A stretch of DNA of 64,000 bases from positions 496,001 to 560,000 of the forward strand of contig NZ_CP019698.1 of the NCBI RefSeq assembly GCF_002005145.1, given 5' to 3'. Position numbers and translations under genes: made by a program. The stretch comes from Desulforamulus ferrireducens. GTDB lineage: Bacteria > Bacillota > Desulfotomaculia > Desulfotomaculales > Desulfotomaculaceae. Of the stretch, positions 37,591 through 52,354 are shown piece by piece. The notes under the pieces were generated by a model. That model ran no database searches. It was not told the origin of the DNA and saw only the letters and a program-made list of their open reading frames with translations. The first letter of the stretch is position 1. Each line of letters begins with the position of its first letter.

Positions 37591-37664
37591 CGGGGTAACC
37601 TCCTTCATTTTTTCTTAAACGGATGGAATTACTTATACCGCTAAATCCCACCCCCTTATAGGTA

Positions 37665-37708: not shown

Positions 37709-37724
37709 AATTAACCATTATGTT

Positions 37725-37818
37725 CTCCTTTCCGCACCGGGAGGCCAGTCTGTTTCCGGACTAACCCTATCGGCTTAAGCACCATACTAGAGTCTAGTGA
37801 AGGTTCTTAAGCTCGGAG
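37725..37818 (-). promoter_or_regulatory. Moco-type riboswitch upstream of tupA (RS1)
   Basis: On the minus strand it carries all conserved blocks of the Moco RNA motif in order: CTCCGAGC, CCGATAGGGTT, CGGAAACAG, GGCCTCCC and GGAAAGGAG. The A in CCGATAGGG differs from CCGTTAGGG of three other copies and is shared only with RS4. A terminator hairpin follows, so control is by transcription termination. Sensing of the tungsten form of the cofactor is possible given the target gene (inference). Confidence 0.92.
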
Positions 37819-38058
37819 TTATTTTAGGTCTTATTCGATTTAAATCACCAAATTCCTCTATTGATATAATTAGGAAGGGATATTAAAGTAACTAGAGAAT
37901 ATTAATAATAGACCTATATTTGGAAGATTCTTTTTGGAACAGTTGAACGGCAAGCTATTCCAAAATAGAACAAGTGACCTTTAAATACTTAAGGGAATTG
38001 TTTTAATAAGGAACATTTTGAATTGGTACAATTTTTGCTATATTTATAAACGCATGTC

Positions 38059-38148
38059 TCCGAGCCGTCTGATCTAAGGCTTTGGCTATGATCTATCGGC
38101 CGTTAGGGTTTGCCGAGAAATGGGCAAGCCTCCCCTGAGGAAAGGAGC
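38059..38148 (+). promoter_or_regulatory. Moco riboswitch (RS2)
   Basis: Blocks CTCCGAGCC, CCGTTAGGGTT, GAGAAATGGGC, AGCCTCCC and GGAAAGGAG in the order and spacing of the Moco RNA. Followed at 38171 by a terminator and then by a 107-aa gene of unknown function. It is divergent from RS1, so a common 240-bp region holds both promoters. Confidence 0.95.
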
Positions 38149-38170
38149 ACGATAAAGCTTGGCTCATTTT

Positions 38171-38559: not shown

Positions 38560-38580
38560 TAACTTTAATACCATAAAATA

Positions 38581-38669
38581 CTCCGAGCCTGGCAGTCTAA
38601 GGCAAAGCTATGAATACCAGGCCGTTAGGGTTTAATGGGAAACCGTTAAGCCTCCCCTGTGGAAAGGAG
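38581..38669 (+). promoter_or_regulatory. Moco riboswitch upstream of the moeA-like gene and mop (RS3)
   Basis: Blocks CTCCGAGCC, CCGTTAGGGTTT, GGGAAACC, AGCCTCCCC and GGAAAGGAG. The stem P1/P2 arms CTGG...CCAGG also pair. A terminator at 38696-38738 completes the switch. It controls the MoeA-like gene and most likely the long mop transcript. Confidence 0.95.
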
Positions 38670-38695
38670 TACAGTTTGAACCTGGTAAAGTTTAG

Positions 38696-38738
38696 AACCA
38701 GGGTGCTGTTAATCCACCACAGCACCCTGGTTTTTTGT
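38696..38738 (+). terminator. Expression-platform terminator of RS3
   Basis: A perfect 14-bp stem (38696-38709 with 38719-38732) and TTTTTT tail. Confidence 0.9.
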
Positions 38739-38790
38739 CTTTGGGAAAATATCCATGGTCTCATTTGTTATACAAAGAGGGGGACAAATT

Positions 38791-39816
38791 ATGAAGATGG
38801 TACCGGTGCAAGAGGCAGTGGGCATGGTTCTCTGCCATGATATTACCCAAATTATCCCGGGTAAATTTAAAGGGCGGGCCTTTAAAAAAGGCCACGTGAT
38901 AAGGTATGAGGATATTCCCAAGCTTTTGGATATCGGCAAGCAAAATATTTATGTATGGGAAGTAAACAAAGACCTGCTGCATGAGGATGAAGCGGCCATG
39001 AGAATTGCCACTGCTGCAGCGGGCAACGGTATTGCCCTGACCGAACCCAAAGAAGGCAAAGTAAACCTGGTAGCGCAACACAGGGGACTCCTTAAGGTAA
39101 ATACCCAAGCTCTGTACAACATTAACGAACAGGAAGAGGTGATGTTTGCCACCTTACACACCAACCAACTGGTTGAGCAGGACAAGGTGGTGGCTGGTAC
39201 TAGAATTATTCCCCTGGTTATTAATAATGGAAAAATCCAGAATATTGAGGAAATATGTCGAAATAATTTTCCGCTGGTGGAGGTCAAACCCTTACAAAGC
39301 AAAAGAGTCGGGATTGTCACCACCGGCAGTGAGGTGTATCACGGTCGCATTGAAGACAAGTTTGGCCCGGTGGTAACCAAAAAGGTAGAGGCCCTGGGCA
39401 GCACTGTTATTAAACAAATTTTTGTCTCTGACAGTACAGAGATGATTGTTGATGCCATTAATCAATTATTGAGAGAGGGGGCTGATCTAATCACCGTTAC
39501 CGGCGGTATGTCTGTGGACCCGGATGATGTAACACCAGCGGGAATCAGAGCTGCCGGGGGACGAATAGTTACCTACGGTGCACCTACCTTACCAGGGGCT
39601 ATGTTTATGGTGGCCTATCTGGGCAAGGTACCTGTGCTGGGGCTGCCCGGCTGTGTCATGTACAGCCGCAGCAGCATTTTTGACCTGGTGTTACCTCGCA
39701 TTTTGGCGGGGGAAGAAATTAGCCGCCGGGATATTGTGGCACTGGGTCACGGGGGATTATGTGTAAACTGTCCTCAATGTCGTTATCCGGATTGTGGTTT
39801 TGGTAAAAGTGTTTAG
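38791..39816 (+). CDS. MoeA/MoaB-like molybdopterin-binding protein
   Basis: 341 aa from ATG at 38791 with AGAGGGGG upstream. The N-terminal part resembles the MoeA N domain (VPVQEAVGMVLCHDITQIIPGKFKGRAFKKGHVI). Residues about 175-320 are a MoCF_biosynth domain (GIVTTGSEVYHGRIEDKFGPVV, then VTGGMSVDPDDVTPAGI), the fold that binds molybdopterin or its adenylate. The C-terminus carries a Cys-rich tail, CVNCPQCRYPDCG, probably a metal site not found in standard MoeA. It likely inserts metal into, or hands over, the cofactor for the following Mop enzyme. Confidence 0.85.
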   Translation: MKMVPVQEAVGMVLCHDITQIIPGKFKGRAFKKGHVIRYEDIPKLLDIGKQNIYVWEVNKDLLHEDEAAMRIATAAAGNGIALTEPKEGKVNLVAQHRGLLKVNTQALYNINEQEEVMFATLHTNQLVEQDKVVAGTRIIPLVINNGKIQNIEEICRNNFPLVEVKPLQSKRVGIVTTGSEVYHGRIEDKFGPVVTKKVEALGSTVIKQIFVSDSTEMIVDAINQLLREGADLITVTGGMSVDPDDVTPAGIRAAGGRIVTYGAPTLPGAMFMVAYLGKVPVLGLPGCVMYSRSSIFDLVLPRILAGEEISRRDIVALGHGGLCVNCPQCRYPDCGFGKSV

Positions 39817-39863
39817 GTTTTAAGGTCCAGAGCATTAAATAAAAATAAAAGGAGTGTGGGAAG

Positions 39864-42641
39864 TTGATTAAGAAGAAGCTTATTATCAACGGCTGCAACA
39901 CCGTGTTGATTTGCGACCCGGAAACTATGTTAGTGGATGTCCTGCGTGGCCAGCTACATCTCACCGGTACTAAAGTCGGTTGCGGCAAAGCTCAATGTGG
40001 TGCTTGCTCAGTCATCCTTAATGGTAAGGTAGTTATGGCCTGTGCCATGAAGATGAAGCGCATTCCCGATGATTCCATCATCACCACCATTGAGGGCATC
40101 GGTACCCCCACCAACCTGCACGCCTTACAATTGGCTTGGGTTAAACATGGTGCCGCCCAGTGTGGCTATTGCTCCCCCGGTTTCATTGTTTCTGCCAAAG
40201 GTCTGTTAGATGAAAACCCTAACCCCACCCGGGAAGAAGTAAGGGATTGGTTCCAGAAGCATAATAACGTCTGCCGTTGCACCGGTTACAAGCCTTTGGT
40301 AGATGCTGTTATGGCCGCGGCTCAACTGCTGCGTGGTGAAATTTCCGTAGAGGATCTGGGCTTCCAGATGCCAGAGGATGGCAAGATCCTGGGCACCGAT
40401 TATCCCCGCCCCTCTGCCATAGCCAAGGTTACCGGTACCATCGAATACGGTTCTGATTTTGGTTTGGAGATGCCTCCCGGCACCCTGCAGCTTAAACTGG
40501 TGCAAGCACAGGTATCCCATGCTAAGATTTTATCCATTGATGTAAGCGAAGCAGAAAAAATGCCCGGCGTTTATAAAGTAGTAACCCATAAGGATATTAA
40601 AGGAAGAAACCGTATTAACGGCTTAAACTTCCCCAGCAACAAGGGTGATAGCTACGACCGTCCCATCCTGTGTGACGAAAAGGTCTTCCAGTTTGGTGAC
40701 GCCATCGCCATTGTCTGTGCTGACACCGAAGCCAATGCCCAGGCTGCGGTAGAAAAGGTAAAAGTGGAATTAGAAGTACTGCCGGCTTACATGAGCGCTC
40801 CTGCTGCTATGGAACCGGATGCCATTGAAATTCACCCCGGTACTCCTAACGTTTACTACAAACAAACCATCGCCAAGGGCGAGGACACCGCACCTCTCAT
40901 GGAGAAGGCTGATGTTGTGGTAGCTATGGAAGACCTCTATGTGGGTCGCCAGCCCCACCTGCCCATTGAGCCGGACGTGGCTGCTGCCTACTATGATGAA
41001 AACGGCAACCTGCAAATCCTCTCCAAGAGTATCGGCTTGGATCTCCATGCCCTGATGATTGCCGAAGGTCTTGGCTTGGAAGCTGGCAAGAACCTGTTCC
41101 TGTCCCAGTTCCCAGGCGTAGGTGGTACCTTTGGTTATAAGTTCAGCCCCACCATTGAAGCTCTGGTAGGTGCTGCTTGCATGGCCACCGGCAAGCCTGT
41201 CTTCCTCAACTTTAACTACTATCAGCAAATTACTTACACCGGTAAACGGTCACCCTTCTTTGTGGACCTTAAGTATGGTGCCACTAAGGATGGTAAAATC
41301 ATCGCCATGGAAAGCAACTGGGCAGTGGATCACGGTCCCTACTCCGAATTTGGCGATCTCCTAACCCTGCGGGGCGCCCAATTTATTGGTGCCGGTTACG
41401 GTATTCCCAACATCCGTGGTACTGGTTACACCGTTTGTACCAACCATTGTTGGGGTTCCGCCTTCCGGGCTTATGGATCACCCCAGAGCTTCTTTGCCTC
41501 AGAAACCCTTATGGATGTATTAGCTGAGAAGCTGGGTATGGATCCGCTGGAGTTACGTTATATCAACGCTTACCGTCCCGGCGATACCAACCCCTCTGGC
41601 CATGAACCGGAAGTATATTCCATGGTAGACTTAATTGATGCCATCCGTCCCAAATATCAGGCAGCCCTGGAGAGAGCTAAAGAACTCTCTACACCCGAGA
41701 AGAAGCGTGGTGTGGGTGTAGCTGTAGGTGCCTATGGTTGTGGTTTGGACGGTGTAGACGGCGCTGAAGTCTGGGCAGAACTGCTGGCTGACGGTCGGGT
41801 GCAAATCAGCACCAACTGGCAGGATCACGGCCAAGGCGCTGATATAGGTCTACTGGCCACTTCCCACGAAGTCCTGCGTGCCATGGGTATTAAGCCGGAG
41901 CAAATCAAACTGGTCACCAACGACATGAACGTAGCACCCGCCGGTGGTCCTGCCGGTGGCAGCCGCTCCCAGTTGGTTATTGGTAACGCGGCAGTAAATG
42001 CTTGCGAACAACTGGTGAAAGCTCTGCAGAAGGAAGATGGCACCTACATGACCTATGATGAAGCAGTGGCCAATAACCTGCCCCTCAAGTATGTAGGCAA
42101 GTGGAGTACCGCTGCGGATAATTGCACTGCTTGTGATGAAAATGCTCAGGGCAAACCCTTTGCCACCTATATGTACGGTGTCTTCCTGGCTGAAGTAGAG
42201 GTAGATACCAAGACCGGTAAGGTTAGTGTGGTTAAGATGACCCTGGCTGCCGACGTTGGAGAAATTATCAACAAGGCCGTGGTGGATGGACAAATCTACG
42301 GTGGCTTGGCTCAGGGCATTGGTTTGGCCCTCAGTGAAGATTTCGAAGACCTGAAGAAACACACTACCATGCGTGCTTGCGGTATACCCTATATCAAGGA
42401 TGTACCCGATGATTTGGAAATTATCTATGTCAACAAGACTCGTAAGATCGGACCTCATGGTGCCAGCGGTGTTGGCGAATTGCCACTGACTGCACCTCAC
42501 GCAGCCATTGCTAACGCTATTTACAATGCCTGCGGCGTACGCATTACTCAACTGCCTGCTTTACCGGAGAAGGTTCTGGCTGGTCTGCAGGGTAAAGAAA
42601 TTCCTGTGGTTAGACGTCCTATTAAGCATCCCGAGTTTTAA
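39864..42641 (+). CDS. mop: Molybdenum aldehyde oxidoreductase (Mop type)
   Basis: 925 aa, TTG start with AAGGAGTG. Single-chain xanthine oxidase-family enzyme with no FAD domain, as in Desulfovibrio gigas MOP. N-terminal plant-type [2Fe-2S] ligands Cys40, 45, 48, 60 and helical [2Fe-2S] ligands Cys100, 103, 137, 139 fall at the D. gigas numbers. The hammerhead and two molybdopterin domains fill about 180-925, including GGTFGYKF, the QGADIG segment and catalytic Glu872 in GVGELPL. Known members oxidise aldehydes to acids and carry molybdopterin cytosine dinucleotide. Codon choice is more biased to C-ending codons than in neighbours, suggesting high expression. XdhC and MobA-like genes downstream fit its maturation. 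Confidence 0.93.
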   Translation: MIKKKLIINGCNTVLICDPETMLVDVLRGQLHLTGTKVGCGKAQCGACSVILNGKVVMACAMKMKRIPDDSIITTIEGIGTPTNLHALQLAWVKHGAAQCGYCSPGFIVSAKGLLDENPNPTREEVRDWFQKHNNVCRCTGYKPLVDAVMAAAQLLRGEISVEDLGFQMPEDGKILGTDYPRPSAIAKVTGTIEYGSDFGLEMPPGTLQLKLVQAQVSHAKILSIDVSEAEKMPGVYKVVTHKDIKGRNRINGLNFPSNKGDSYDRPILCDEKVFQFGDAIAIVCADTEANAQAAVEKVKVELEVLPAYMSAPAAMEPDAIEIHPGTPNVYYKQTIAKGEDTAPLMEKADVVVAMEDLYVGRQPHLPIEPDVAAAYYDENGNLQILSKSIGLDLHALMIAEGLGLEAGKNLFLSQFPGVGGTFGYKFSPTIEALVGAACMATGKPVFLNFNYYQQITYTGKRSPFFVDLKYGATKDGKIIAMESNWAVDHGPYSEFGDLLTLRGAQFIGAGYGIPNIRGTGYTVCTNHCWGSAFRAYGSPQSFFASETLMDVLAEKLGMDPLELRYINAYRPGDTNPSGHEPEVYSMVDLIDAIRPKYQAALERAKELSTPEKKRGVGVAVGAYGCGLDGVDGAEVWAELLADGRVQISTNWQDHGQGADIGLLATSHEVLRAMGIKPEQIKLVTNDMNVAPAGGPAGGSRSQLVIGNAAVNACEQLVKALQKEDGTYMTYDEAVANNLPLKYVGKWSTAADNCTACDENAQGKPFATYMYGVFLAEVEVDTKTGKVSVVKMTLAADVGEIINKAVVDGQIYGGLAQGIGLALSEDFEDLKKHTTMRACGIPYIKDVPDDLEIIYVNKTRKIGPHGASGVGELPLTAPHAAIANAIYNACGVRITQLPALPEKVLAGLQGKEIPVVRRPIKHPEF

Positions 42642-42651
42642 TTTAAAAAAG

Positions 42652-42686
42652 CCCTTGGTCTTGGCTGTTGATTCAGCCCAAGGCCA
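42652..42686 (+). terminator. Possible weak terminator after mop
   Basis: An imperfect hairpin (CCTTGG with CCAAGG around a Gly/Ala-codon-like inner stem) just after the mop stop. The tail is poor in T, so readthrough is likely. Confidence 0.35.
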
Positions 42687-42699
42687 GTGTAATTAACAG

Positions 42700-42776
42700 C
42701 ACAACTCCTGTGGCTACCCCGGCGCGGGAGAAAACTTCCCGCGCCGGGGAGTACCAGCAAAGCTGACGGAGGTGTG
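42700..42776 (+). ncRNA. Candidate structured RNA between mop and the dicluster gene
   Basis: Three nested helices can form a three-way junction: outer CACAACTCC (42700-42708) with GGAGGTGTG (42768-42776), a perfect 13-bp GC-only-type stem (42717-42729 with 42737-42749), and a small CAGC-AAA-GCTG hairpin (42755-42765). No T-run follows the GC stem, so it is not a simple terminator. It matches no riboswitch consensus I know. A role in processing or lowering expression downstream of mop is inferred. Confidence 0.45.
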
Positions 42777-42805
42777 CCCCGGTTTGTTGAACGATCTAAG
42801 AGATT

Positions 42806-42847
42806 CCTAAAACGAACTAAAAAGTTTCACTTTTAGTTCGTTTTAGG
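42806..42847 (+). terminator. Long hairpin before the dicluster gene
   Basis: An 18-bp stem with one bulge (42806-42824 with 42830-42847), loop TTTCA, 26 bp before the next start codon, followed by TTTCCTTATT. It could stop a fraction of transcripts or stabilise a processed end. Confidence 0.5.
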
Positions 42848-42873
42848 TTTCCTTATTAATAAGGTGGGATACT

Positions 42874-45171
42874 ATGGACCACAAATTAATTATGTCTTTC
42901 GAAGAAAAGTGTATTCAGGAGCAACCACCGGCCTGCAATGCCACCTGCCCTGTGCACGTGGATGTCAGGGGCATGGTGGCGGCTATTGCGGCTGAGCGCT
43001 TTACTGAAGCCTTCAATATATATTGTAAGTCTGTACCCTTCCCGGGGATTATTGGTCGCATTTGTGACCACCCATGCCAGTCTGCCTGCAAACGGGGCGA
43101 AGCGGGGGACGCCATCGCCATTGCTGCCCTGGAAAAGGCCGTTGTGCAGCAAGTGGAGGTAGCCCGCCCCAAGCTGACACCTGCCAGCCCCAAGTCACAG
43201 CGGGTGGCGGTGGTGGGAGGAGGGTTAAGCGGTTTAACCGCAGCCCATGACCTGGCCAAAAAAGGTTACCAGGTAACTTTGCTGGAAACCGGCAGCCAAT
43301 TGGCTGGCAGGATTAGAGAAAGATTCAGTACTGAGCTACCCGAGCAAGTGATTAACGACGATTTGGCTGTTATTGAACAGTTGGGCATAACCGTCCAACT
43401 TAACACAGGCGTAGGCAAGGATATTTCCTTTACCTCTTTATGTGAGGACTATGATGCAGTTTATCTTACTGCCCTGCCTGGGCAGCAACCGGGTGAGCTA
43501 ACCATTGATCCCCTTACTTTGGCTACAGAAATTAAGGGTGTTTTTGCCGGTGGCAGTTTGCGCCTGGGCAACACTTCACCCATTGGCTCGGTGGCAGACG
43601 GCAGAAAGGCAGCCATTTCCATTGATCGTTATCTCCAAGGGGTATCTCTCACAGCAGCCCGGGAGCAGGAAGGACCCTTCCAAACCAGGCTCTTTACCAG
43701 TTTGGTGGGAGTGGAACCACTGCCGGTGGTGCCCATGGGGCAAGACCGCAGCTTTTATAGCAAGGAAGAAGCCAAGCGGGAGGCTGCCCGTTGTTTGCAG
43801 TGCCAGTGCTTGGAATGTGTCAAGGTATGCCCATATCTAGAACACTTTAAGGGTTATCCTAAAAAATACGTCCGTCAAATCAACCACAACCTTAAGATGA
43901 TCAAGGGTCGGCACGAAGCCAACATCTTAATAAACTCCTGCAGCCTGTGTGGTCTCTGCCAGGAGGCTTGTCCGGAAGGACTTCACCTGGGAGAGCTTTG
44001 TGGCATGGCTCGCCAGGAGATGGTGAAAAAGGGGAAAATGCCCCCCTCGGCCCATGATTTTCCCCTGCGGGACATGGCCTTCAGTAATGGCCCGTCCTGT
44101 ACGTTAACCCGCCACCAACCAGGGCATACTGTCAGTAACTATCTCTTTTTCCCGGGCTGTCAGCTTAGTGCCACCGCCCCGGAGCATGTGGTCAGGGTTT
44201 ATGACTATTTAACAGAGAAACTGCCCGGCGGGGTTGGCCTGATGCTGCGCTGCTGTGGTGCTCCGGCAGAATGGTCAGGACGTCGGGAGCTATTTATGGC
44301 CGAGCTGCAGCAAATTAAGGACCAGTGGGAGGAGATGGGCAAGCCTTGCCTGGTGTTGGCCTGTTCCACCTGTCAGCAGATTTTTCAACAATACCTGCCC
44401 GAGGCGAAGCTTGTTTCCCTGTGGGAGTTGTATGACTTGCACGGTTTACCCCAGGTTGCTGCAGCCAAAAGACCAACCCTGGTGGCAGTACACGATGCCT
44501 GTACCGCCAGACACCGCGGGGAAGTGCAGGAGAAAGTAAGAAAAATTTTGCTTGCGTTAGGCTGCCGGTTGGAGGAACTACCCACCAGCGGTAATAAAAC
44601 CGAGTGCTGCGGCTATGGTGGACTGATGCAGTATGCTAACCGCCCTTTGGCGGATGAGGTGGCTAAGCGGCGCATTAAGCAAAGTCCTGCGGACTATGTG
44701 GCCTACTGTGCCATATGCCAGGAAAACTTTACGGCTAAGGGCAAACGCACCTATCACCTGCTGGATCTAATCTATGGGGAGGCCGATCCTACCACCCCTG
44801 CTAAACGTCGCGTAGGTTACTCCCAACGGCGGGAAAACAGAGTAAAGCTGAAAAACAAACTACTTAAAGAGGTATGGAGAGAAAAGATCGTGCCACAGGA
44901 AAATGACTATACGGCCATTAAACTATTAATTTCTCCTTCAGTACAGGAACTAATGGAAGAACGTTTAATTTTGGTAGAAGATATCCAAAAGGTTATTGCC
45001 TATGCTGAAAGGACAGGTAAGAAGCTCTTTAATCATGACAGCGGTCATTACCTGGCCTACCATCGGCCGGTTAGTGTAACTTACTGGGTGGAGTATCTGC
45101 CCGAGGGCGATGGTTATAGAATCTTCAACACCTATTCTCACAGAATGGAGATACCTGGTGGAGATGAATGA
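42874..45171 (+). CDS. FAD/Fe-S dicluster oxidoreductase of the Mop cluster
   Basis: 765 aa, four parts. Residues 1-95 are a GltD-like Fe-S entry domain (CNATCPVHVDV, CDHPCQSACKRGEAG). Residues about 108-260 hold a short FAD domain (VVGGGLSGLTAAHDLA) that seems to lack a full NADPH domain. About 305-385 holds two cluster motifs (CLQCQCLECVKVCP, CSLCGLCQEACP). About 425-640 contains two CCG repeats (CCGAPAEW, CCGYGG), as in heterodisulfide reductase HdrB/glycolate oxidase. The last 90 residues (DHDSGHY-like HDSGHYLAYHRP) are unassigned. Probably carries electrons from Mop to another acceptor (inference). Confidence 0.82.
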   Translation: MDHKLIMSFEEKCIQEQPPACNATCPVHVDVRGMVAAIAAERFTEAFNIYCKSVPFPGIIGRICDHPCQSACKRGEAGDAIAIAALEKAVVQQVEVARPKLTPASPKSQRVAVVGGGLSGLTAAHDLAKKGYQVTLLETGSQLAGRIRERFSTELPEQVINDDLAVIEQLGITVQLNTGVGKDISFTSLCEDYDAVYLTALPGQQPGELTIDPLTLATEIKGVFAGGSLRLGNTSPIGSVADGRKAAISIDRYLQGVSLTAAREQEGPFQTRLFTSLVGVEPLPVVPMGQDRSFYSKEEAKREAARCLQCQCLECVKVCPYLEHFKGYPKKYVRQINHNLKMIKGRHEANILINSCSLCGLCQEACPEGLHLGELCGMARQEMVKKGKMPPSAHDFPLRDMAFSNGPSCTLTRHQPGHTVSNYLFFPGCQLSATAPEHVVRVYDYLTEKLPGGVGLMLRCCGAPAEWSGRRELFMAELQQIKDQWEEMGKPCLVLACSTCQQIFQQYLPEAKLVSLWELYDLHGLPQVAAAKRPTLVAVHDACTARHRGEVQEKVRKILLALGCRLEELPTSGNKTECCGYGGLMQYANRPLADEVAKRRIKQSPADYVAYCAICQENFTAKGKRTYHLLDLIYGEADPTTPAKRRVGYSQRRENRVKLKNKLLKEVWREKIVPQENDYTAIKLLISPSVQELMEERLILVEDIQKVIAYAERTGKKLFNHDSGHYLAYHRPVSVTYWVEYLPEGDGYRIFNTYSHRMEIPGGDE

Positions 45172-45183
45172 GGAAGTGAATGT

Positions 45184-45378
45184 ATGAGCCAAGAGAAGGT
45201 TTTGGAGTGCCTGAAATGTGGCGTCAAATTGGCAATGGGCAATGTGGAGGTAACCTATTTGAACAACAAATTTCCCATTCAATTGCCCAAATGTCCCAAG
45301 TGTGGGCTGGTTTTCATTCCAGAGGAGCTGGCCACCGGTAAAATGTTAGAGGTGGAGAAGGCCCTGGAGGATAAGTAA
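45184..45378 (+). CDS. Small zinc-ribbon/redox protein of the Mop cluster
   Basis: 64 aa. Two CXXC pairs (CLKCG near residue 9 and CPKCG near residue 37) form a rubredoxin- or zinc-ribbon-like site. From memory the Desulfovibrio vulgaris counterpart is annotated as DVU_1557-family redox protein. It starts 12 bp after the dicluster gene and 20 bp before the methyltransferase, so it is part of the same transcript. Metal and partner unknown. Confidence 0.75.
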   Translation: MSQEKVLECLKCGVKLAMGNVEVTYLNNKFPIQLPKCPKCGLVFIPEELATGKMLEVEKALEDK

Positions 45379-45398
45379 ACCTAGCGGAGGTAAACAAA

Positions 45399-46136
45399 AT
45401 GTCCAACTCTGGTGGTTACTGCATTTATGAAGGAACAGCCATTAGGCAGGTTACCGGTGATAGTATCCGGCCCGGGGGCTTTCAACTGACGGAGCGGGCC
45501 ATGGAGTTTTGTGCCCTGCCGCCAGGGGCGAAGGTGTTGGATATTGGTTGTGGCACTGGCGCCACTGTGGAATATCTCATAGATAAATATCAGCTACAGG
45601 CGGTGGGAATAGACCCCTCCCACCTGTTGCTGGCACAGGGTCGTCAGAGAAGGCCAGATTTACCTATCTTTCAGGCTGTGGGTGAATGCCTGCCCTTTTA
45701 TGAAGGTGAAATGGCAGGTGTTTTGGCCGAGTGTTCCCTGTCGGTGATGACTAATCCGGCCAGAGTGCTGAGGGAATGTCAGCGAGTGTTAAGGGCAGGG
45801 GGCTACCTGATTTTAACGGATATTTACGCCAAAAACTCAGCAGCAGTGGCCGGCTTGCGAACCTTGCCCCTGGTGAGCTGTGTCACCGGCGCCATGGGGC
45901 GCCAGGAACTGGAAGAAATGCTTAAGCAAGCCGGTTTGCGGGTTGTTCTTTGGGAGGATCACGGGGAACTGCTTAAACAACTTATGGTTAGGCTAATCCT
46001 GACCCATGGTTCCCTAAAAAATTTCTGGCAGCAGGGTGACACCGGCGGGATGACCGGCGAGTCAATACAGGAAATTATCAAAGAGGCAAAGTTGAGCTAT
46101 TACCTGTTAGTAGCCCAAAAGGGGGAGGATAAATAA
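45399..46136 (+). CDS. SAM-dependent methyltransferase of the Mop cluster
   Basis: 245 aa, ATG with GCGGAGGT. Class I methyltransferase fold: motif I VLDIGCGTGATVEYL (about 45-59), acidic residue GIDPS, and the later strand LRAGGYLILTD. From memory the family is called DVU_1556 after the Desulfovibrio copy. The substrate is not known. Its fixed place between Fe-S proteins and a radical SAM enzyme suggests it modifies a cofactor or a small molecule handled by Mop rather than nucleic acid (inference). Confidence 0.8.
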   Translation: MSNSGGYCIYEGTAIRQVTGDSIRPGGFQLTERAMEFCALPPGAKVLDIGCGTGATVEYLIDKYQLQAVGIDPSHLLLAQGRQRRPDLPIFQAVGECLPFYEGEMAGVLAECSLSVMTNPARVLRECQRVLRAGGYLILTDIYAKNSAAVAGLRTLPLVSCVTGAMGRQELEEMLKQAGLRVVLWEDHGELLKQLMVRLILTHGSLKNFWQQGDTGGMTGESIQEIIKEAKLSYYLLVAQKGEDK

Positions 46137-46570
46137 TGTCTGAAGCAATGTTTCGTATGTTTGAACTGGCCCAACAGGGTTTTTCTTGCAGTCAGATTTT
46201 ATTACAACTGGGCTTGGAGGCCCAGGGTAAAAGCAATGACGACCTTATCCGAGCCATGGCGGGCTTAGCAGGGGGCATGGGCTTTGCCGGTGAAACCTGT
46301 GGCGCCTTAACAGGTGGGGCCTGCCTGCTGGGGTTATATGTAACGGATCAGGAACGGTTAAAGCTGATGGTTGCTGAACTGGTTGACTGGTTTAAGGAAC
46401 AAATGGCAACGGAATACGGTGGTATTAACTGTCGTGATATTTTAGGTGAGGAACTACAATATCAGACTGTTTCCATGAAATGCGGTAATATTGTTGGTGC
46501 CACCTATGCAAAGGTGAGGGAACTTCTGCAACAACATCAAATTGAGCTAACGGGGTCTGACCATGAGTGA
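46136..46570 (+). CDS. C-GCAxxG-C-C family protein
   Basis: 144 aa, start overlapping the methyltransferase stop by one base. It has the spaced-Cys pattern of this family: FSCSQILLQL near residue 17, GETCGALTGGACLLG in the middle, NCRDILG and KCGNIVG near the end. Such proteins are thought to bind a metal or Fe-S cluster, or to be redox active through cysteine pairs. Role in the Mop system unknown. Coupled translationally to both neighbours. Confidence 0.8.
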   Translation: MSEAMFRMFELAQQGFSCSQILLQLGLEAQGKSNDDLIRAMAGLAGGMGFAGETCGALTGGACLLGLYVTDQERLKLMVAELVDWFKEQMATEYGGINCRDILGEELQYQTVSMKCGNIVGATYAKVRELLQQHQIELTGSDHE

Positions 46571-47918
46571 GCAATTTCTGAGCCAGACAGAGAGTGTTTG
46601 TCCCCATTGTTTGCGGCGGTTACCGGCCAAGCGGGTACAGCAGGGCGAGCAGGTTTTTCTCGTGAAAAATTGCCCGGAGCATGGGGCTACAAAGACGCCG
46701 CTTTGGCGGGGAGCACCGGATTACCGGAACTGGGCCAGGCCCAAACTGCCCTCCCAACCCAAAGAGTGTTTTACAGAGATAGAAAAGGGCTGCCCCTATG
46801 ACTGTGGACTTTGCCCGGAGCATCGGCAGCATAGCTGTACGGTGTTGCTGGAGGTTACCCAACGGTGCAATTTAGGTTGTAGCTATTGTTTTGCCAATGC
46901 CGGTGCAAAGGTGAGCGACCCGGATCTGCCCACCATCAAAGGTTGGTTTGAACAAATCCTCCAAGCCGGTGGACCCTACAATATTCAATTATCCGGCGGC
47001 GAGCCCACCCTGCGGGACGACTTGCCGGAGATTATCCGTCTGGGCAAATCATTGGGCTTTAATTTCATTCAGATAAATACCAACGGTTTGCGCCTGGCTG
47101 AGGAACCCTCCTTTTTAAAGAAGTGTCAAGAAGCCGGTCTAACCTCTATTTTTTTACAATATGACGGAACCGAGGAAGCCATCTATGAGGCCTTACGGGG
47201 TAGGCCCTTGCTAAAGCAAAAACTCCAAGCCATTGAACACTGCCGCCAGTTTAATATCGGTGTTGTCTTGGTGCCTACCCTGGTACCGGGGATTAACATA
47301 CATAACATTGGTGCTATGGTTGAACAGGCCCTAAGTTATTTACCCACAGTGCGGGGCATTCATTTTCAGCCGGTCAGCTATTTTGGCCGTTATCCCGCAC
47401 CGCCCGGGGACGAGCAACGCATTACCATTCCCGAGGTGATCCGAGCCATTGAGGAGCAAAGTGCAGGAAAAATTACCAGGGACAGCTTTAAGCCACCGGG
47501 CTGTGAAAATGCCCTGTGTTCCTTTCACGGCAATTTTATCCTGTTACCCAGCGGTGAACTGAGACCTTGGACCAAACACGAGGGCTGCTGTGACACTACC
47601 GAAAGGGCTGAAGTGGGGGCAGCCAAGGCCAGAAGTTTTGTGGCCAAGTACTGGTCTGCTCCGGAGATTAAGCCGGTTACCGTGGGAACCGGCGGGGGAG
47701 CCTTACGACTTTGGGATGCCTTTATTGAAAGAGCCCGCACCCATTCCTTCAGTATCTCGGGTATGGCCTTTCAGGATGCCTGGAATTTAGATTTGGAAAG
47801 GCTAAAGGATTGCTGTATTCATGTCATGTCCCCGGATGGTAAGCTTATACCCTTCTGTGCCTATAATTTAACAGACAGTCAGGGACGACCCCTTTATCGT
47901 CAGGTGAGTAAGTCATGA
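46563..47918 (+). CDS. Radical SAM enzyme of the Mop cluster
   Basis: 451 aa, overlapping the upstream gene by 8 bp. Radical SAM cluster ligands Cys102-X3-Cys106-X2-Cys109 (CNLGCSYC), the GGEPTLR motif for SAM binding, and the NTNGL strand are present. The N-terminal 90 residues carry extra cysteines in a zinc-ribbon arrangement (Cys13, Cys16, NCPEHG, GCPYDCGLC), as in the tetraether lipid synthase (Tes) group. A C-terminal domain has CC pairs (GCCDTT, DCCIHV). From memory, related proteins in the same context can contain selenocysteine; none is needed here. Reaction unknown. Confidence 0.85.
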   Translation: MSEQFLSQTESVCPHCLRRLPAKRVQQGEQVFLVKNCPEHGATKTPLWRGAPDYRNWARPKLPSQPKECFTEIEKGCPYDCGLCPEHRQHSCTVLLEVTQRCNLGCSYCFANAGAKVSDPDLPTIKGWFEQILQAGGPYNIQLSGGEPTLRDDLPEIIRLGKSLGFNFIQINTNGLRLAEEPSFLKKCQEAGLTSIFLQYDGTEEAIYEALRGRPLLKQKLQAIEHCRQFNIGVVLVPTLVPGINIHNIGAMVEQALSYLPTVRGIHFQPVSYFGRYPAPPGDEQRITIPEVIRAIEEQSAGKITRDSFKPPGCENALCSFHGNFILLPSGELRPWTKHEGCCDTTERAEVGAAKARSFVAKYWSAPEIKPVTVGTGGGALRLWDAFIERARTHSFSISGMAFQDAWNLDLERLKDCCIHVMSPDGKLIPFCAYNLTDSQGRPLYRQVSKS

Positions 47919-49273
47919 AACTAACCCCACTGCAACCATGGATTGCTCAAAAAATCGGGGTTAGCAGCAGTTCCTTAACCAGAGAAGCCATTGAGCAATA
48001 TCAATTGGCTAAGTTGCGGCAAACCCTCCGGTTAGCCACAGAACGTAGTACCTTTTATCGTCGAAGGCTGGGCCAGGTTTCTCTTAAAGATTTAGCCTCT
48101 TTTCAAGAACTGCCCTTTACCACCGCCGCGGATATTTGCCAGAACCCCCTGAGCTTTCTTTGTGTTTCCCAGGACGAGATCAGCCGGGTGGTAACCCTGC
48201 AGAGTTCCGGTACCACCGGAGCACCGAAAAGAATCTACTTCACCAAAGAAGAACAGGAATTAACCATTGATTTTTTCCATATTGGCATGTCTAACCTGGT
48301 GGGGCCGGGGGATACCGTAATGATCCTGTTACCGGGACAACTACCCGGCAGTGTGGGAGATTTGCTGGCCCAGGGGTTGGCACGACTGGGAGTGAGACCT
48401 GTTCCCCACGGTTTGGTTACAGAGCCAGGGAAAACACTGGAGATTATACGGGAACAAAGGGTTAATGCCCTGGTGGGTATCCCCACCCAGGTGCTGGCCC
48501 TGGCCAGACACCGCAGTGAGGACGGCCAAAGGGCAGCCCTCCGTCTGAAAAGTGTTCTCCTCAGTACTGATTATGTTCCCCAGGCTATTACCAGGGAACT
48601 GGAACAAAGCTGGGGTTGCCGGGTCTTTGGTCATTATGGTATGACTGAGATGGGACTGGGAGGCGGTGTTGAGTGTGAGGCCTTAGGAGGCTACCACTTG
48701 CGCGAAGCTGATTTATATTTTGAGATTATCAACCCTATCACCGGTGCACCGGTACCCGAAGGGGAAGAGGGGGAAGTGGTGTTTACCACCCTCACCAGGC
48801 GTGGTATGCCTCTTATCCGCTATCGCACCGGAGATTGGGCTAGATTTATCCCCGAACCCTGCCCCTGTGGCAGTATGCTCAAAAGAATGGCTCGGGTGAG
48901 GGGAAGGGTGGCCGGTGCCTGTCAGTTGGCAGGAGGCAGTATTACCATGCAGGAACTGGATGAGGCTCTCTTTGCCACCGCAGGACTGCTTAATTTCACA
49001 GCCACTTTATCCCGTCCTGAGCAGTTGGACAGGTTAACCATCGGGTTAAAAATGGCCGCTGGCTTTAGTGAGGATGGGATACAGGTTATCCAAGCAGCCT
49101 TAGCCACCATACCGGCCATTGCCAGGGCATTGGAGCAAGGTGATTTGGAAATTTGTCTGGAACTGCTGCCAGAGGATTGGCCAGTAACTGCTGCTAAACG
49201 ATTGATTAAAGATCTGAGAAACGGGGGTAACAACCATGAAAAAACTCTACCAAGCCATGCTGCAATACCTTGA
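47915..49273 (+). CDS. AMP-dependent CoA ligase of the Mop cluster (PaaK-like)
   Basis: 452 aa, ATGA overlap with the radical SAM gene. Adenylate-forming fold like phenylacetate-CoA ligase: P-loop SSGTTGAPKRI, the YGMTEMG core, and YRTGDWARF. A small C-terminal domain follows. It would activate a carboxylic acid as acyl-AMP and then acyl-CoA. An attractive link is activation of the acid product of Mop, but it could equally serve modification of a cofactor. The substrate pocket cannot be read from sequence alone. Confidence 0.83.
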   Translation: MKLTPLQPWIAQKIGVSSSSLTREAIEQYQLAKLRQTLRLATERSTFYRRRLGQVSLKDLASFQELPFTTAADICQNPLSFLCVSQDEISRVVTLQSSGTTGAPKRIYFTKEEQELTIDFFHIGMSNLVGPGDTVMILLPGQLPGSVGDLLAQGLARLGVRPVPHGLVTEPGKTLEIIREQRVNALVGIPTQVLALARHRSEDGQRAALRLKSVLLSTDYVPQAITRELEQSWGCRVFGHYGMTEMGLGGGVECEALGGYHLREADLYFEIINPITGAPVPEGEEGEVVFTTLTRRGMPLIRYRTGDWARFIPEPCPCGSMLKRMARVRGRVAGACQLAGGSITMQELDEALFATAGLLNFTATLSRPEQLDRLTIGLKMAAGFSEDGIQVIQAALATIPAIARALEQGDLEICLELLPEDWPVTAAKRLIKDLRNGGNNHEKTLPSHAAIP

Positions 49274-50264
49274 ACAGGGTGATAGCTTTGTCCAGGCTAC
49301 CATCCTCTCCCAGTCCGGTTCCGCCCCACGCACTGCCGGAGCCAAAATGATCATTTTACCGGATCAATCAATTCTGGGTACCATAGGCGGAGGGTTGGTA
49401 GAGGCCAAGGTACAGGAATTGGCCGGGGAAGTCTTTCAGACCAAGCAGGCAGTAATCAAGGACTTTAACCTGACGGGCCAAGAGGCCGGGCAAATGGATA
49501 TGATTTGCGGGGGCAGACTTAAGGTGTTGGTGGAATATATGAATGCTGCCAACCAACAACTGGTTACCGTTTATCAAGCTTTGCTGGAGGCTATGGAAAG
49601 ACGGCAGCGGGCGGTCCTGGTAACCCCACTGAACGATGACGGTAAGCAAACCTTTTTATTACATGGGGATGGTTCTCTTACCGGCGCCTTTACCGGCCCC
49701 AAGGAATGGTTGGAGGAACTTATCAAATTACCCGGCAGGTACCCTCAGGTTATTGAACTGGGGGAGCAGAGTTTTCTGGCAGAACCCGTTAGCACCAGTG
49801 GCACTGTTTATATTTTTGGTGCTGGCCATGTCTCACAAAAATTAGCCTTAGTGACCAGCCTGGTGGGCTTTCGTACGGTGGTACTGGATGACCGGCAGGA
49901 ATTTGCCAATAGGGAGCGTTTTCCTACCGCGGATGAGGTGGTGGTGCTGGCTGACTTTGGGCAGGCCTGTAGCAATCTGGACATTGATCAGGATAGTTAT
50001 CTCGTCATCGTCACCCGAGGGCATGCCCACGACAAGACAGTGCTGGCCCAGGCCCTGAAGACCAAGGCGCGTTATATCGGTATGATTGGCAGTAAGAAAA
50101 AACGTGACACCGTTTACCGTGCGCTGCAGCAGGAAGGCCATAGTTTAGAAGCTTTACAAAGGGTCTACTGCCCCATTGGACTGGAAATTGGTGCCGAAAC
50201 ACCGGAGGAGATCGCTGTGAGTATTACAGCGGAACTAATTAAGGTCAGAGCAGGGGAAAGCTGA
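49236..50264 (+). CDS. XdhC/CoxI-family molybdenum cofactor maturation protein
   Basis: 342 aa, ATG with GGGGGT, overlapping the ligase gene by 38 bp. The XdhC N domain carries GSAPRTAGAKM and GTIGGGLVEA; the C domain is a Rossmann fold (FGAGHVSQKLA, VLDDR, then IGMIGSKKKR). XdhC proteins bind the cytosine-dinucleotide cofactor and promote its sulfuration before insertion into xanthine oxidase-family enzymes. Here the client is almost surely Mop. Cytoplasmic. Confidence 0.9.
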   Translation: MKKLYQAMLQYLEQGDSFVQATILSQSGSAPRTAGAKMIILPDQSILGTIGGGLVEAKVQELAGEVFQTKQAVIKDFNLTGQEAGQMDMICGGRLKVLVEYMNAANQQLVTVYQALLEAMERRQRAVLVTPLNDDGKQTFLLHGDGSLTGAFTGPKEWLEELIKLPGRYPQVIELGEQSFLAEPVSTSGTVYIFGAGHVSQKLALVTSLVGFRTVVLDDRQEFANRERFPTADEVVVLADFGQACSNLDIDQDSYLVIVTRGHAHDKTVLAQALKTKARYIGMIGSKKKRDTVYRALQQEGHSLEALQRVYCPIGLEIGAETPEEIAVSITAELIKVRAGES

Positions 50265-51385
50265 TGAAGCAATGGGAGAACATTGAGGCCATTATTTTAG
50301 CCGCAGGGTTTTCTTCCCGCATGGGGCGGTTTAAGCCCCTGTTGCCTCTGGCAGGCACCACAGTGCTGGAGAAATCCATAGCCGTCTTTCGTGAGGCGGG
50401 TGTCCGAGAGGTAACAGTGGTGGTGGGTCACCGGGCTAACGACCTGCTACCGGTTTTACAACCCCTGGGGGTTAACATCGTTTTCAATGGTGATTACAGC
50501 AGTGGTATGTTTTCCTCTGTTAAGGCGGGGGTCAGTGCTTTACAACCCTCCTGCCAAGCCTTCTTTTTATTGCCGGGGGATATTCCTCTGGTGCAACCAA
50601 GCACTGTTATGAAGTTGCTAACAAGCCACCAAAGCCAGCCTACCGGTATTATTTATCCTTGCTACCAGGGCCAGCGGGGTCACCCGCCGCTCATATCCAC
50701 CCACTACCGGGCAGCCATTTTGACTGGCTCGGGGGAGGGAGGCTTAAGGGCTATCTTGGATCATTTTGAGGCGGCGGCCAGGGATGTGGCAGTGAGGGAT
50801 GAGGGAGTACTGCTGGATCTCGACACCCCGGGGGATTACCGGAAAATTTGTGCCATGCTAAAGGAAGACATTGTGCCTCCGGTACAGGATTGCTTGGAAC
50901 TTCTTAAGCAGGCCGGGGTATCCCCGCGCATCACCCAACATTGCCAGGCTGTGGCCCGGGTGGCAGAGAAAATAGCTTGCTCCTTAAAGGAAGCCGGTTA
51001 TCAATTGGATATTGACCTAATTATTGCTGCTGCTTTGCTGCACGATATCGCCAGGGGAGAAAGGGAACACGCCCAAGCGGGTGCCGAACGACTAAAGCAA
51101 CTGGGTTATCTCAGGGTGGCAGAAATTGTGGCCCATCATATGGACCTTTGGCCGGATCAGACAGGTATTAATGAAACGACGGTGGTTTATCTGGCTGATA
51201 AGTTGGTCAAGGAAAACCAACCCATGGCACTGGAACAAAGACTACAGGACATTTCACATAAATATGCTGCTCAGCCAGAGGTGCTGGAAGCAGCCACCAG
51301 GAGATTAAAGCAGGCAGCAATCATTAAGTCACAGATTGAAAGGGTAACAGCTTACCCGTTGGAAAAAATAATTGGCATTGGTTAA
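50264..51385 (+). CDS. MobA-like nucleotidyltransferase fused to HD domain
   Basis: 373 aa, TGATG overlap with xdhC. Residues 1-195 match MocA/MobA: the NTP loop LAAGFSSRMGRFKPLLP, LPGDIPL for metal and substrate, and RGHPPL. It would attach CMP to molybdopterin. Residues about 215-365 form an HD phosphohydrolase domain with LLHDIARGEREHAQAG. The fusion joins synthesis with a phosphohydrolase; the HD part might remove waste pyrophosphate-type products or regulate. From memory, the family is called DVU_1551 NTP transferase. Confidence 0.85.
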   Translation: MKQWENIEAIILAAGFSSRMGRFKPLLPLAGTTVLEKSIAVFREAGVREVTVVVGHRANDLLPVLQPLGVNIVFNGDYSSGMFSSVKAGVSALQPSCQAFFLLPGDIPLVQPSTVMKLLTSHQSQPTGIIYPCYQGQRGHPPLISTHYRAAILTGSGEGGLRAILDHFEAAARDVAVRDEGVLLDLDTPGDYRKICAMLKEDIVPPVQDCLELLKQAGVSPRITQHCQAVARVAEKIACSLKEAGYQLDIDLIIAAALLHDIARGEREHAQAGAERLKQLGYLRVAEIVAHHMDLWPDQTGINETTVVYLADKLVKENQPMALEQRLQDISHKYAAQPEVLEAATRRLKQAAIIKSQIERVTAYPLEKIIGIG

Positions 51386-51395
51386 GAGGTCCGGG

Positions 51396-51998
51396 ATGGA
51401 AGAAAAAATAATTTTTTTACTTAGGCATGGCGCGCTGGAGACCAACGGCAAAAGATTTATCGGGCAAATAGATTTACCTTTGAGTGAAGAGGGGATATGG
51501 CAGGCAAAGGGTTTAGCAGAGGAGCTTAGCCACCTCCCATTAACCCGGATCTACGCCAGTGATTTAAGGCGCGCCCGTCAGACCGCGGCGTTTATTGCTG
51601 TTAAACATAACCTCGTGCCTATCCTTTGCCCGGAACTACGGGAAATATCCCTGGGGGAGTGGGAGGGGAGATCCTTTGCCGAAATCCGCCGTGAGTTTCC
51701 CCAGGACTTCATTCAAAGGGGTAGGGATATTACTCATTTTAGTCCCCCCGCTGGGGAGAGTTTTCTACAATGCAGCCAGAGGGTGTTGATCCAATGGCAG
51801 AGGATAGTGGCAGAGACAAAGGGCAATATACTGGTTGTCGGGCATGCAGGGGTTAATCGGATAATTCTCTGCCATATTTTAGGGATGCCTCTGGAGAACA
51901 TCTTTTGTTTGAGCCAGGATTATGGCTGTATTAACATTATCAGCTATAGTAAGGAAAGGTTTCGGGTCAAAGCACTGAATTGCCGAAGCATTCCATAG
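51396..51998 (+). CDS. Histidine phosphatase (phosphoglycerate mutase-like)
   Basis: 200 aa from ATG at 51396, which has a GAGGT site; the open frame upstream to 51372 overlaps the previous gene. The RHG motif (Arg10-His11-Gly12) carries the phosphorylated His; acid/base Glu lies in LREISLGEWEG, and the second His in VVGHAGVNRI. The sequence is closest in style to CobC (alpha-ribazole phosphatase) types. Eleven bases after the HD fusion, so it is the last gene of the Mop transcript. It may dephosphorylate a cofactor precursor (inference). Confidence 0.82.
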   Translation: MEEKIIFLLRHGALETNGKRFIGQIDLPLSEEGIWQAKGLAEELSHLPLTRIYASDLRRARQTAAFIAVKHNLVPILCPELREISLGEWEGRSFAEIRREFPQDFIQRGRDITHFSPPAGESFLQCSQRVLIQWQRIVAETKGNILVVGHAGVNRIILCHILGMPLENIFCLSQDYGCINIISYSKERFRVKALNCRSIP

Positions 51999-52076
51999 AA
52001 AAGAATATTTAAAATGTTATTTTAAATTAAAGGATTATTCAGACAGTTGGCGAATAAGCTATTATAGATTCATTAC

Positions 52077-52170
52077 CTCCGAGCCCTGCAACCTGGGATG
52101 CTAGATTATGGTTGCTGTGGCCGATAGGGTTTACCTGGAAACGGGTAGGCCTCCCGTGTGGAAAGGATGG
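52077..52170 (+). promoter_or_regulatory. Moco riboswitch, first of tandem pair (RS4)
   Basis: Blocks CTCCGAGCC, CCGATAGGGTTTACC, GGAAACGGGTA, GGCCTCCC and GGAAAGGAT. It has two deviations: A instead of T in CCGATAGGG (shared with RS1 of tupA) and GGAT instead of GGAG at the 3' end. It has its own terminator at 52193. Confidence 0.92.
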
Positions 52171-52192
52171 TAGGTTTAATAGCCATGCCCTT

Positions 52193-52218
52193 AACCGCAC
52201 GCAGGTGCGGTTTTTTAA
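52193..52218 (+). terminator. Expression-platform terminator of RS4
   Basis: A perfect 8-bp stem AACCGCAC/GTGCGGTT with loop GCAG and TTTTAATTT. Confidence 0.85.
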
Positions 52219-52240
52219 TTTAATTAAAATATTCGCTGTT

Positions 52241-52330
52241 CTCCGAGCCATATTACCTGTAAGCATTGGCTATGGTGCTATGGCCGTTAGGGTTAACCGG
52301 GAAACTGATTAGCCTCCCTCTGGAAAGGAG
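52241..52330 (+). promoter_or_regulatory. Moco riboswitch, second of tandem pair (RS5)
   Basis: Blocks CTCCGAGCC, CCGTTAGGGTTAACC, GGGAAACTG, AGCCTCCC and GGAAAGGAG. It begins only 22 bp after the RS4 terminator. Its own terminator is at 52355. Confidence 0.95.
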
Positions 52331-52354
52331 AGCCTTAGCCACCTGTGTCTCAAC

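Follow-up and report, generated by a model that had tools for sequence, protein, structure and literature searches.

In this study, we propose that the operon around mop, the gene of a molybdenum aldehyde oxidoreductase in Desulforamulus ferrireducens, is a single functional unit of two separable modules. The window, which is the whole stretch of DNA that was analysed, covers 64,000 nucleotides (nt) of NZ_CP019698.1, the one contig (3.24 Mb) of this genome. Module A would be the enzyme itself, made up of Mop, its putative electron acceptor (an FAD/iron-sulfur (Fe-S) protein, here diclust) and genes for the molybdenum (Mo) cofactor (MoeA-like, XdhC and a nucleoside triphosphate (NTP) transferase). 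Module B, which would make something that the Mop system needs, comprises the C-terminal domain of diclust (Cdom), a small zinc-ribbon-type protein (ribbon), a methyltransferase (MT), a C-GCAxxG-C-C protein (CGC), the Tes-like radical S-adenosylmethionine (SAM) enzyme TrsS and an AMP-forming ligase (lig). We suggest tentatively, at somewhat less than an even chance, that the operon encodes a carrier-protein system serving Mop and its electron acceptor, in which a group is built on the C-terminal lysine of ribbon. Of the new findings, the fixed end of ribbon tells the most, and it is on the analysis of this tail that the carrier proposal rests.

Organization of the operon

The riboswitch that a first-pass annotation of this DNA had placed at the head of the cluster was confirmed, and in L130 and L131, two genomes of the same genus, the mop cluster is likewise preceded by riboswitches. 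The features of the operon are as follows.

38569-38685, + strand: Moco/tungsten cofactor riboswitch RF01055 (80.3 bits, gathering score of 36 passed)
38696-38736, + strand: terminator-like hairpin with a T run, between the riboswitch and the MoeA-like gene (fold and sequence reading)
38791-39816 (longest open reading frame (ORF) from 38755), + strand: MoeA/MoCF-like protein (PF00994, 86 bits)
39864-42641, + strand: mop, aldehyde oxidoreductase without FAD domain (NF045668, 1612 bits, cut-off 1100)
42642-42873, + strand: mop-diclust gap of 232 nt, highly structured (z -10.7), with a 17-bp hairpin at 42806-42847
42874-45171, + strand: diclust, with FAD/NAD domain, 4Fe-4S dicluster, CCG domains and Cdom (NF045663, 1069 bits, cut-off 530)
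44890-45168, + strand: Cdom, C-terminal domain of diclust (NF045663 positions 672-758)
45184-45378, + strand: ribbon, 64-amino-acid zinc-ribbon-type protein of the DVU_1557 family/DUF7479, tail ...LEDK-COOH (NF045645, 102 bits, cut-off 60; PF24292, 98 bits, cut-off 27)
45399-46136, + strand: MT, SAM-dependent methyltransferase, DVU_1556 family (NF045667, 260 bits, cut-off 155)
46136-46570, + strand: CGC, C-GCAxxG-C-C protein, DVU_1555 family (NF045669, 166 bits, cut-off 103)
46563-47918, + strand: TrsS, Tes-like radical SAM enzyme (NF045646, 703 bits, cut-off 490)
47915-49273, + strand: lig, AMP-forming ligase, DVU_1553 family, PaaK-like (NF045666, 499 bits, cut-off 300)
49236-50264, + strand: XdhC-family maturation factor (NF045664, 459 bits, cut-off 350)
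50264-51385, + strand: NTP, MocA-like NTP transferase with HD domain, DVU_1551 family (NF045665, 448 bits, cut-off 315)
51372-51998, + strand: HP, histidine phosphatase, CobC-like (TIGR03162, alpha-ribazole phosphatase, 168 bits, cut-off 163)

Nine consecutive proteins, Mop through the NTP transferase, each scored over the cut-off of their own NCBIfam model. No NCBIfam model was passed by the MoeA-like protein, the start of which is more likely the ATG at 38791, following AGAGGGGG, than 38755. The first-pass annotation had counted nine genes after mop, ending with a histidine phosphatase at 51998, and this count stands; its description of the junctions as overlaps or short gaps holds for all of them (gaps of 12 and 20 nt, otherwise overlaps) but mop-diclust. 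The 232-nt gap at that junction folds far more stably than its shuffled versions (200 shuffles). Its 17-bp hairpin appears in the list of terminator-like hairpins, which at 21 sites shows no excess over shuffles (18.4 +/- 4.2), and the hairpin at 38696-38736 is not among the sites of that list. An Rfam scan of the gap at relaxed threshold returned nine weak matches, all far under their gathering scores, and a known RNA element was rejected, these matches being animal and plant microRNAs, roX1 and one plasmid small RNA. A pattern derived from the gap was seen, among 159 loci, only in a locus of its own genome.

A resemblance to genes DVU1551-1559 of Desulfovibrio vulgaris, which the earlier annotation had noted, proved correct: NCBIfam family names include DVU_1551, 1553, 1555, 1556 and 1557, and DVU_1559 is called an aldehyde oxidoreductase in passages of PMC10920352. 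The further description of the cluster as unexplained holds for its function as far as we have seen, but the families are already curated in NCBIfam (NF045645, NF045646 and NF045663-NF045669), a set that names families and gives no pathway. A table of one review credits TrsS to Haft & Tolstoy 2025 (PMC12013261). The literature found on DVU1551, DVU1553-1556, DVU1558 and DVU1559 consisted of passing mentions of DVU1558 and DVU1559, and no paper proposing a carrier was found in the literature searched, which did not include Haft & Tolstoy 2025. While the families were thus catalogued before, the facts on the ribbon tail and on the Cdom-ribbon pairing are new here.

The ribbon protein ends at an invariant lysine

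All 85 distinct ribbon copies stop at the same alignment column with a lysine. Over the four terminal positions, conservation is 97% for L, 100% for E, 96% for D and 100% for K, in a protein with a mean pairwise identity of 0.52. These 85 sequences remained after removal of those under 60 bits, cut by contig ends, containing unknown residues or identical to others. For eight other operon proteins, the commonest end position covers just 9-35% of copies. Moreover, all 15 ribbon matches in a sample of genomes of the phylum (described below) extend to the final position of the model, and in both natural Cdom-ribbon fusions (L107 and L112) the join is at the N-terminal side of ribbon, so that the tail stays free.

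With 88 ribbons above 55 bits counted, Cdom is followed by a ribbon in 86 of 89 cases. Cdom is mostly the tail of a redox enzyme, as 73 dicN-Cdom ORFs were found in 100 loci; it stands alone in L034, L084 and L130. The Pfam matches of diclust are Fer4_20, NAD_binding_8, Fer4_17 and CCG. The Cdom sequences gave no Pfam match over cut-off, and a sequence comparison of the L034 Cdom with the PDB gave no convincing match. In L084 (241-1155, a Pelotomaculum metagenome-assembled genome), a Moco riboswitch was observed right before an orphan pair of Cdom and CGC genes.

Ubiquitin-like and sulfur-carrier proteins make chemical use of their C-terminus. The closest parallels to ribbon are the LysW/ArgW carriers, which are likewise small zinc-ribbon proteins with an invariant C-terminal residue, charged in the case of LysW by an ATP-using ligase. 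A ligase is encoded in the operon of ribbon too, but it is ANL/PaaK-like and not LysX. Ribbon shares with such carriers a C-terminal residue fixed in both position and identity (85 of 85); its tail is LEDK in place of the EDWGE motif of LysW, and at 14.7 bits against the LysW family NF041070 (cut-off 75) it is not a member. LysW carries its substrate attached to the C-terminal Glu, and changing this Glu in a homologue results in an arginine auxotroph, according to passages of PMC10433800.

Distribution and association with mop

The TrsS alignment was used to scan one genome per species, and the best 80 of 552 relatives were retained; these span Bacillota, Desulfobacterota, Chloroflexota, Campylobacterota, Acidobacteriota and Pseudomonadota. 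Where both genes of a pair were found in these 80 loci, TrsS was followed by lig (75/75), ribbon by MT (58/58) and mop by diclust (52/53), the Mo-cofactor genes being less fixed in order (lig before NTP in 26/40); these order counts stand without a null model. Thirty-nine loci extend for 8.5 kb or more on both sides of TrsS; in these, ribbon was found in 37, diclust in 37, CGC in 36, lig in 36, mop in 35 and MT in 34.

In a sample of 199 genomes from the phylum of the window, taken as Bacillota, TrsS, ribbon and MT occur in the identical 13 genomes. Ribbon and MT are over their cut-offs, as is TrsS in 12 genomes; in the thirteenth (G072) the TrsS copy lies at a contig end and, at 469 bits, falls short of the cut-off. 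Each of the 13 has mop as well, in one case as a contig-edge fragment, and lig is present in 12 (10 over cut-off). In this table G072 counts as a TrsS genome, and G076 and G073, which have mop fragments, count as mop genomes; strict use of the cut-offs gives 12 TrsS genomes and 13 mop genomes, 11 of them in common. The family sample, 199 genomes around an uncultured Desulfovibrio (G219), was profiled with thresholds of E 1e-60 for TrsS and 1e-200 for mop. TrsS was found in 131 genomes and mop in 134, and 127 have the two together (Fisher p = 5e-38, kinship uncorrected).

The first-pass annotation had tied the extra genes to mop, and profiling contradicts the opposite case of their occurring mostly without it, since mop accompanies TrsS in 13/13 genomes of the phylum sample and 127/131 of the family sample. 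The extra genes are therefore more than neighbours of mop, with exceptions described below, and the link is stronger than that annotation could know.

Separation and fusion of the modules

The two modules are found apart in nature. In Desulforhabdus, locus L115 holds the MoeA-like gene, mop, diclust, a ribbon, XdhC and an NTP-HP fusion, and locus L034 holds Cdom, ribbon, MT, CGC, TrsS and lig with no mop. In G315, one locus (L152) contains the MoeA-like gene and mop, and apart from it L151 contains diclust, MT, CGC, TrsS, lig, XdhC, NTP and HP. G264 has mop together with a diclust of reduced length (687 residues) in L147, and a Cdom with TrsS, XdhC and NTP in L148. Fusions observed in 100 loci were NTP-HP (three), lig-HP (one), NTP-TrsS (one) and Cdom-ribbon (two). 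The first three kinds link lig, TrsS, NTP and HP with one another, and as a whole the fusions tie module B to its helpers.

Some loci have additional neighbours. A tungsten aldehyde ferredoxin oxidoreductase (AOR)-like gene, under the model cut-off, lies divergently beside the mop-free TrsS block of L034 (5736-7694, - strand), and its homologues are found in 4 loci. Occasional neighbours elsewhere are a cysteine desulfurase cluster (representative TIGR01977, 8 loci) and a mixed regulator cluster (representative sigma-54, PrdR/DhaR-like, 23 loci).

Predicted activities of the module B proteins

The nearest relative of TrsS is Tes (7TOL, 409 bits by profile, aligned along Tes), with which it shares an N-terminal zinc-ribbon region, the radical SAM core and a C-terminal Cys motif; at 364 bits against the Tes model NF045702 (cut-off 450) it is related to Tes and not a member, and unlike Tes it sits in a Mo-enzyme operon. 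TrsS has CxxxCxxC at 102/106/109 plus further invariant Cys. Tes couples two unactivated carbons, and it is therefore chemically reasonable, though unproven, that TrsS would act on a C-H bond of an aliphatic chain like that of lysine. A selenocysteine codon was looked for in the TrsS of L109, in a stretch that holds unknown bases.

CGC has four near-invariant Cys (C18, C55, C99 and C116). Its model (predicted local distance difference test (pLDDT) 93.5) matched split-Soret cytochrome c 1h21, the entry title of which mentions a novel iron centre, with Z 11.7, root mean square deviation (rmsd) 3.2 and 134 aligned residues (next Z 3.8; Foldseek E 0.098), a Z within reach of helical folds through arrangement alone. 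The match is confined to residues 27-192 of 1h21, which has 240 residues against 144 in CGC. From the Cys residues and this fold match, we infer that CGC is probably an Fe-S protein. The nearest solved structure to lig is PaaK (4R1L, 140 bits); against the PaaK model TIGR02155 lig scores 150 bits, under the cut-off of 646.

Proposed mechanism

In the scheme that we propose, ribbon would be the carrier protein and its free C-terminal lysine the site of attachment or modification. The AMP-forming ligase would activate a group and couple it at this lysine, TrsS would carry out Tes-type radical chemistry at a C-H bond, MT would add a methyl group, and CGC would serve as the Fe-S electron donor. 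The finished ribbon would then dock on the Cdom of diclust, and electrons or substrate would be carried between Mop and diclust. In a bolder form, which we regard as doubtful, ribbon would be the first of a new class of carrier/prosthetic group, its lysine charged by the ANL ligase and remodelled by TrsS and MT, so that Mop-type molybdenum enzymes would have a protein-bound cofactor of their own, handed over on the Cdom of their FAD/Fe-S partner. The invariant lysine narrows the question of the extra genes to one 64-residue protein.

Several points weigh against this scheme. To our knowledge, no ANL ligase charges a protein C-terminus, and the nearest solved relatives of lig are small-acid CoA ligases. 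The modification of ribbon is a prediction from sequence comparison, the ribbons in the tail count all come from loci picked via TrsS or mop, and the fixed tail could be a mere docking peptide. CGC (E 1e-18) is present in only 9 of the 13 phylum-sample genomes (8 over cut-off). G083 and G073 carry a partial mop without a TrsS over cut-off, G083 with a TrsS-like match of 332 bits. The family sample covers TrsS and mop only, and in it four genomes have TrsS without mop and seven have mop without TrsS. Contig ends explain at least 7 of these 11 discordant genomes, and not G221 or G272: among those with TrsS only, G334 and G416 show pieces of mop in short frames and the contig of G394 starts at diclust, and in the mop-only genomes G247, G343, G355 and G400 the fetched cluster is truncated by a contig end. 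All eleven were retained in the counts. A set of 22 genomes was selected mostly for a missing or truncated mop in the vicinity of TrsS, with L110 and L074 added as mop-bearing; 13 of them have mop over the cut-off and 9 do not (best 256-803 bits; completeness not given). Parts of module B also occur by themselves, L116 of C. ragsdalei having ribbon and lig with no TrsS, MT or CGC at that locus, and L069 (C. ragsdalei) and L073 (Desulfosporosinus) having TrsS without other module B genes.

The surroundings of some of these exceptional copies were recorded. TrsS lies near a CobW-like GTPase in L069 and near metal-transport-like genes in L073. In L140 (G221, a genome without a mop match), a tandem TrsS pair and a ligase adjoin a contig end.

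Alternative explanations

The alternative that survives best, which we nevertheless judge unlikely, is that the product of module B is a small, diffusible redox cofactor, following the logic of mycofactocin and pyrroloquinoline quinone, which would take electrons from Mop or diclust, ribbon being an accessory with a docking tail. A radical SAM enzyme, a methyltransferase, a nucleotidyl transferase, a ligase and a phosphatase do resemble cofactor synthesis, and the NTP-HP, lig-HP and NTP-TrsS fusions agree with it. So do the distance correlations, which also count against the carrier scheme: the distances of TrsS follow those of NTP (0.73), lig (0.69) and HP (0.69) best and those of mop least of the partners (r 0.44). 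However, a separate precursor gene was not recognised in the operon, and a docking motif has no obvious need of an exact free carboxylate, yet every one of the 85 ribbons has one.

An aldehyde-to-acyl-CoA route, which the first-pass annotation had also offered, appears slightly less probable still. Here, TrsS and MT would make or rearrange an aldehyde, Mop would oxidize it, lig would form the coenzyme A (CoA) thioester, and diclust and ribbon would take the electrons. Such a route suits a PaaK-like ligase and a Mop that is an aldehyde oxidoreductase, placed under ethanol metabolism in D. vulgaris in a table of PMC10920352. ORF clusters resembling alcohol dehydrogenase (6 loci, recognised by sequence only) and tungsten AOR (4 loci, under the model cut-off) point the same way. 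It leaves TrsS, MT, CGC and the fixed ribbon tail unexplained, does not account for the NTP-HP, lig-HP and NTP-TrsS fusions, and gives no reason why mop keeps the same genes across phyla.

Structure models raised a further alternative, in which Cdom and ribbon would be a toxin-antitoxin pair of the MqsR/MqsA type, domesticated for a regulatory and not a biosynthetic task. In the alignment prepared for modelling, the final Cdom residues were misplaced in unfused rows, and the pair was modelled as the natural fusion of L112 (pLDDT 87.7, predicted template modelling score 0.81). The L112 model resembles RelE/YoeB/BrnT folds at Z ~6 (BrnT 3u97, Z 5.9, rmsd 2.5, 73 aligned) and 3hi2_D, which we take to be MqsR, at Z 5.4. 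Its ribbon part aligns with the MqsA N-domain 3gn5/3ga8 (Z 4.8 and 4.5), and one ribbon (L107) weakly matches the MqsA family TIGR03830 (E 0.049). Every Z is under 8 (fold matches of 4.5-6.3, with none above 6.3 among the top-ranked Foldseek chains), and the Foldseek E-values are 0.04 or worse. The L107 ribbon reaches 13.4 bits against a TIGR03830 cut-off of 61.8, and the ribbon of the window gave no TIGR03830 match. A protein of 64 residues is too short for the MqsA helix-turn-helix, and the predominance of Cdom as a redox-enzyme tail does not fit a toxin. The resemblance may thus be kept as a weak lead, the explanation itself being very improbable.

Mop and its cofactor

Mop of the window has Fer2, Fer2_2, Ald_Xan_dh_C, MoCoBD_1 and MoCoBD_2 domains and no FAD domain (a Fer2_3 match is under cut-off). 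Its nearest solved relatives, matched over the full length at 1341 and 1325 bits, are the aldehyde oxidoreductases of D. gigas (1SIJ/1VLB) and D. desulfuricans (1DGJ). The D. gigas enzyme, in preparations purified from cells of D. gigas itself, has molybdopterin cytosine dinucleotide (MCD) as its cofactor, seen at up to 1.28 Å without a sulfido ligand (passages of PMC10223205 and PMC3877041). MCD binding and aldehyde oxidation are thus reported for that enzyme and predicted by likeness for the Mop of the window.

Genome G235, taken as D. gigas on the strength of 188 residues that match the PDB 1SIJ/1VLB chain at 100%, carries in order the MoeA-like gene, mop, diclust, ribbon, MT, CGC, TrsS, lig, XdhC and HP; an NTP gene was not found within the 37 kb searched. 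A chemical modification of the Mop molybdenum cofactor by module B, the new cofactor modification offered by the first-pass annotation, agrees with the strong mop link, the Mo-cofactor genes in the operon and the Moco riboswitch, but we give it hardly any chance: the gene set, minus the NTP gene, is present in D. gigas, and the part of the literature cited above finds MCD in the Mop of this species. Module B is therefore unlikely to alter the Mop cofactor, at any rate to a stoichiometric extent in cells grown under those conditions.

The carrier scheme would also change how the D. gigas enzyme is seen. It gave the first crystal structure of the xanthine oxidase family and was studied as a purified protein; in passages of PMC10223205, flavodoxin is still its putative physiological partner, and those passages mention no operon genes. 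Should Mop regularly belong with a radical SAM enzyme, a methyltransferase, a ligase and a carrier, studies of the D. gigas enzyme will have seen only part of the machine.

The NTP transferase of the operon scored 159 bits against the MocA cytidylyltransferase model TIGR03310, not reaching the cut-off of 186.45. A second MocA-like protein is encoded in the same genome (C1:1491150-1491713; 165 bits against 161 for the operon NTP, both under cut-off). With the two scoring about equally, the operon NTP need not be the sole cytidylyltransferase.

Neighbouring features of the window

Downstream of the operon, tandem Moco riboswitches (52065-52346), the first followed by a terminator-like hairpin, precede an L-glutamate semialdehyde/aldehyde dehydrogenase gene (52846-54393, TIGR01237); a tandem Moco riboswitch pair lies downstream of the cluster in L130 and L131 as well. 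Together, the riboswitches and the dehydrogenase possibly switch aldehyde oxidation between a Mo-dependent and an NAD-dependent isozyme. Upstream of the operon, a Moco riboswitch at 37709-37830 (- strand) precedes the gene of a predicted metal-binding protein, TupA-like by sequence, at 36706-37608 (- strand), and a further Moco riboswitch is found at a small ORF (38046-38163, + strand). The window also contains two group II introns, 2401-2963 and 14214-14776, about 12 kb apart and with equal Rfam scores and spacing.

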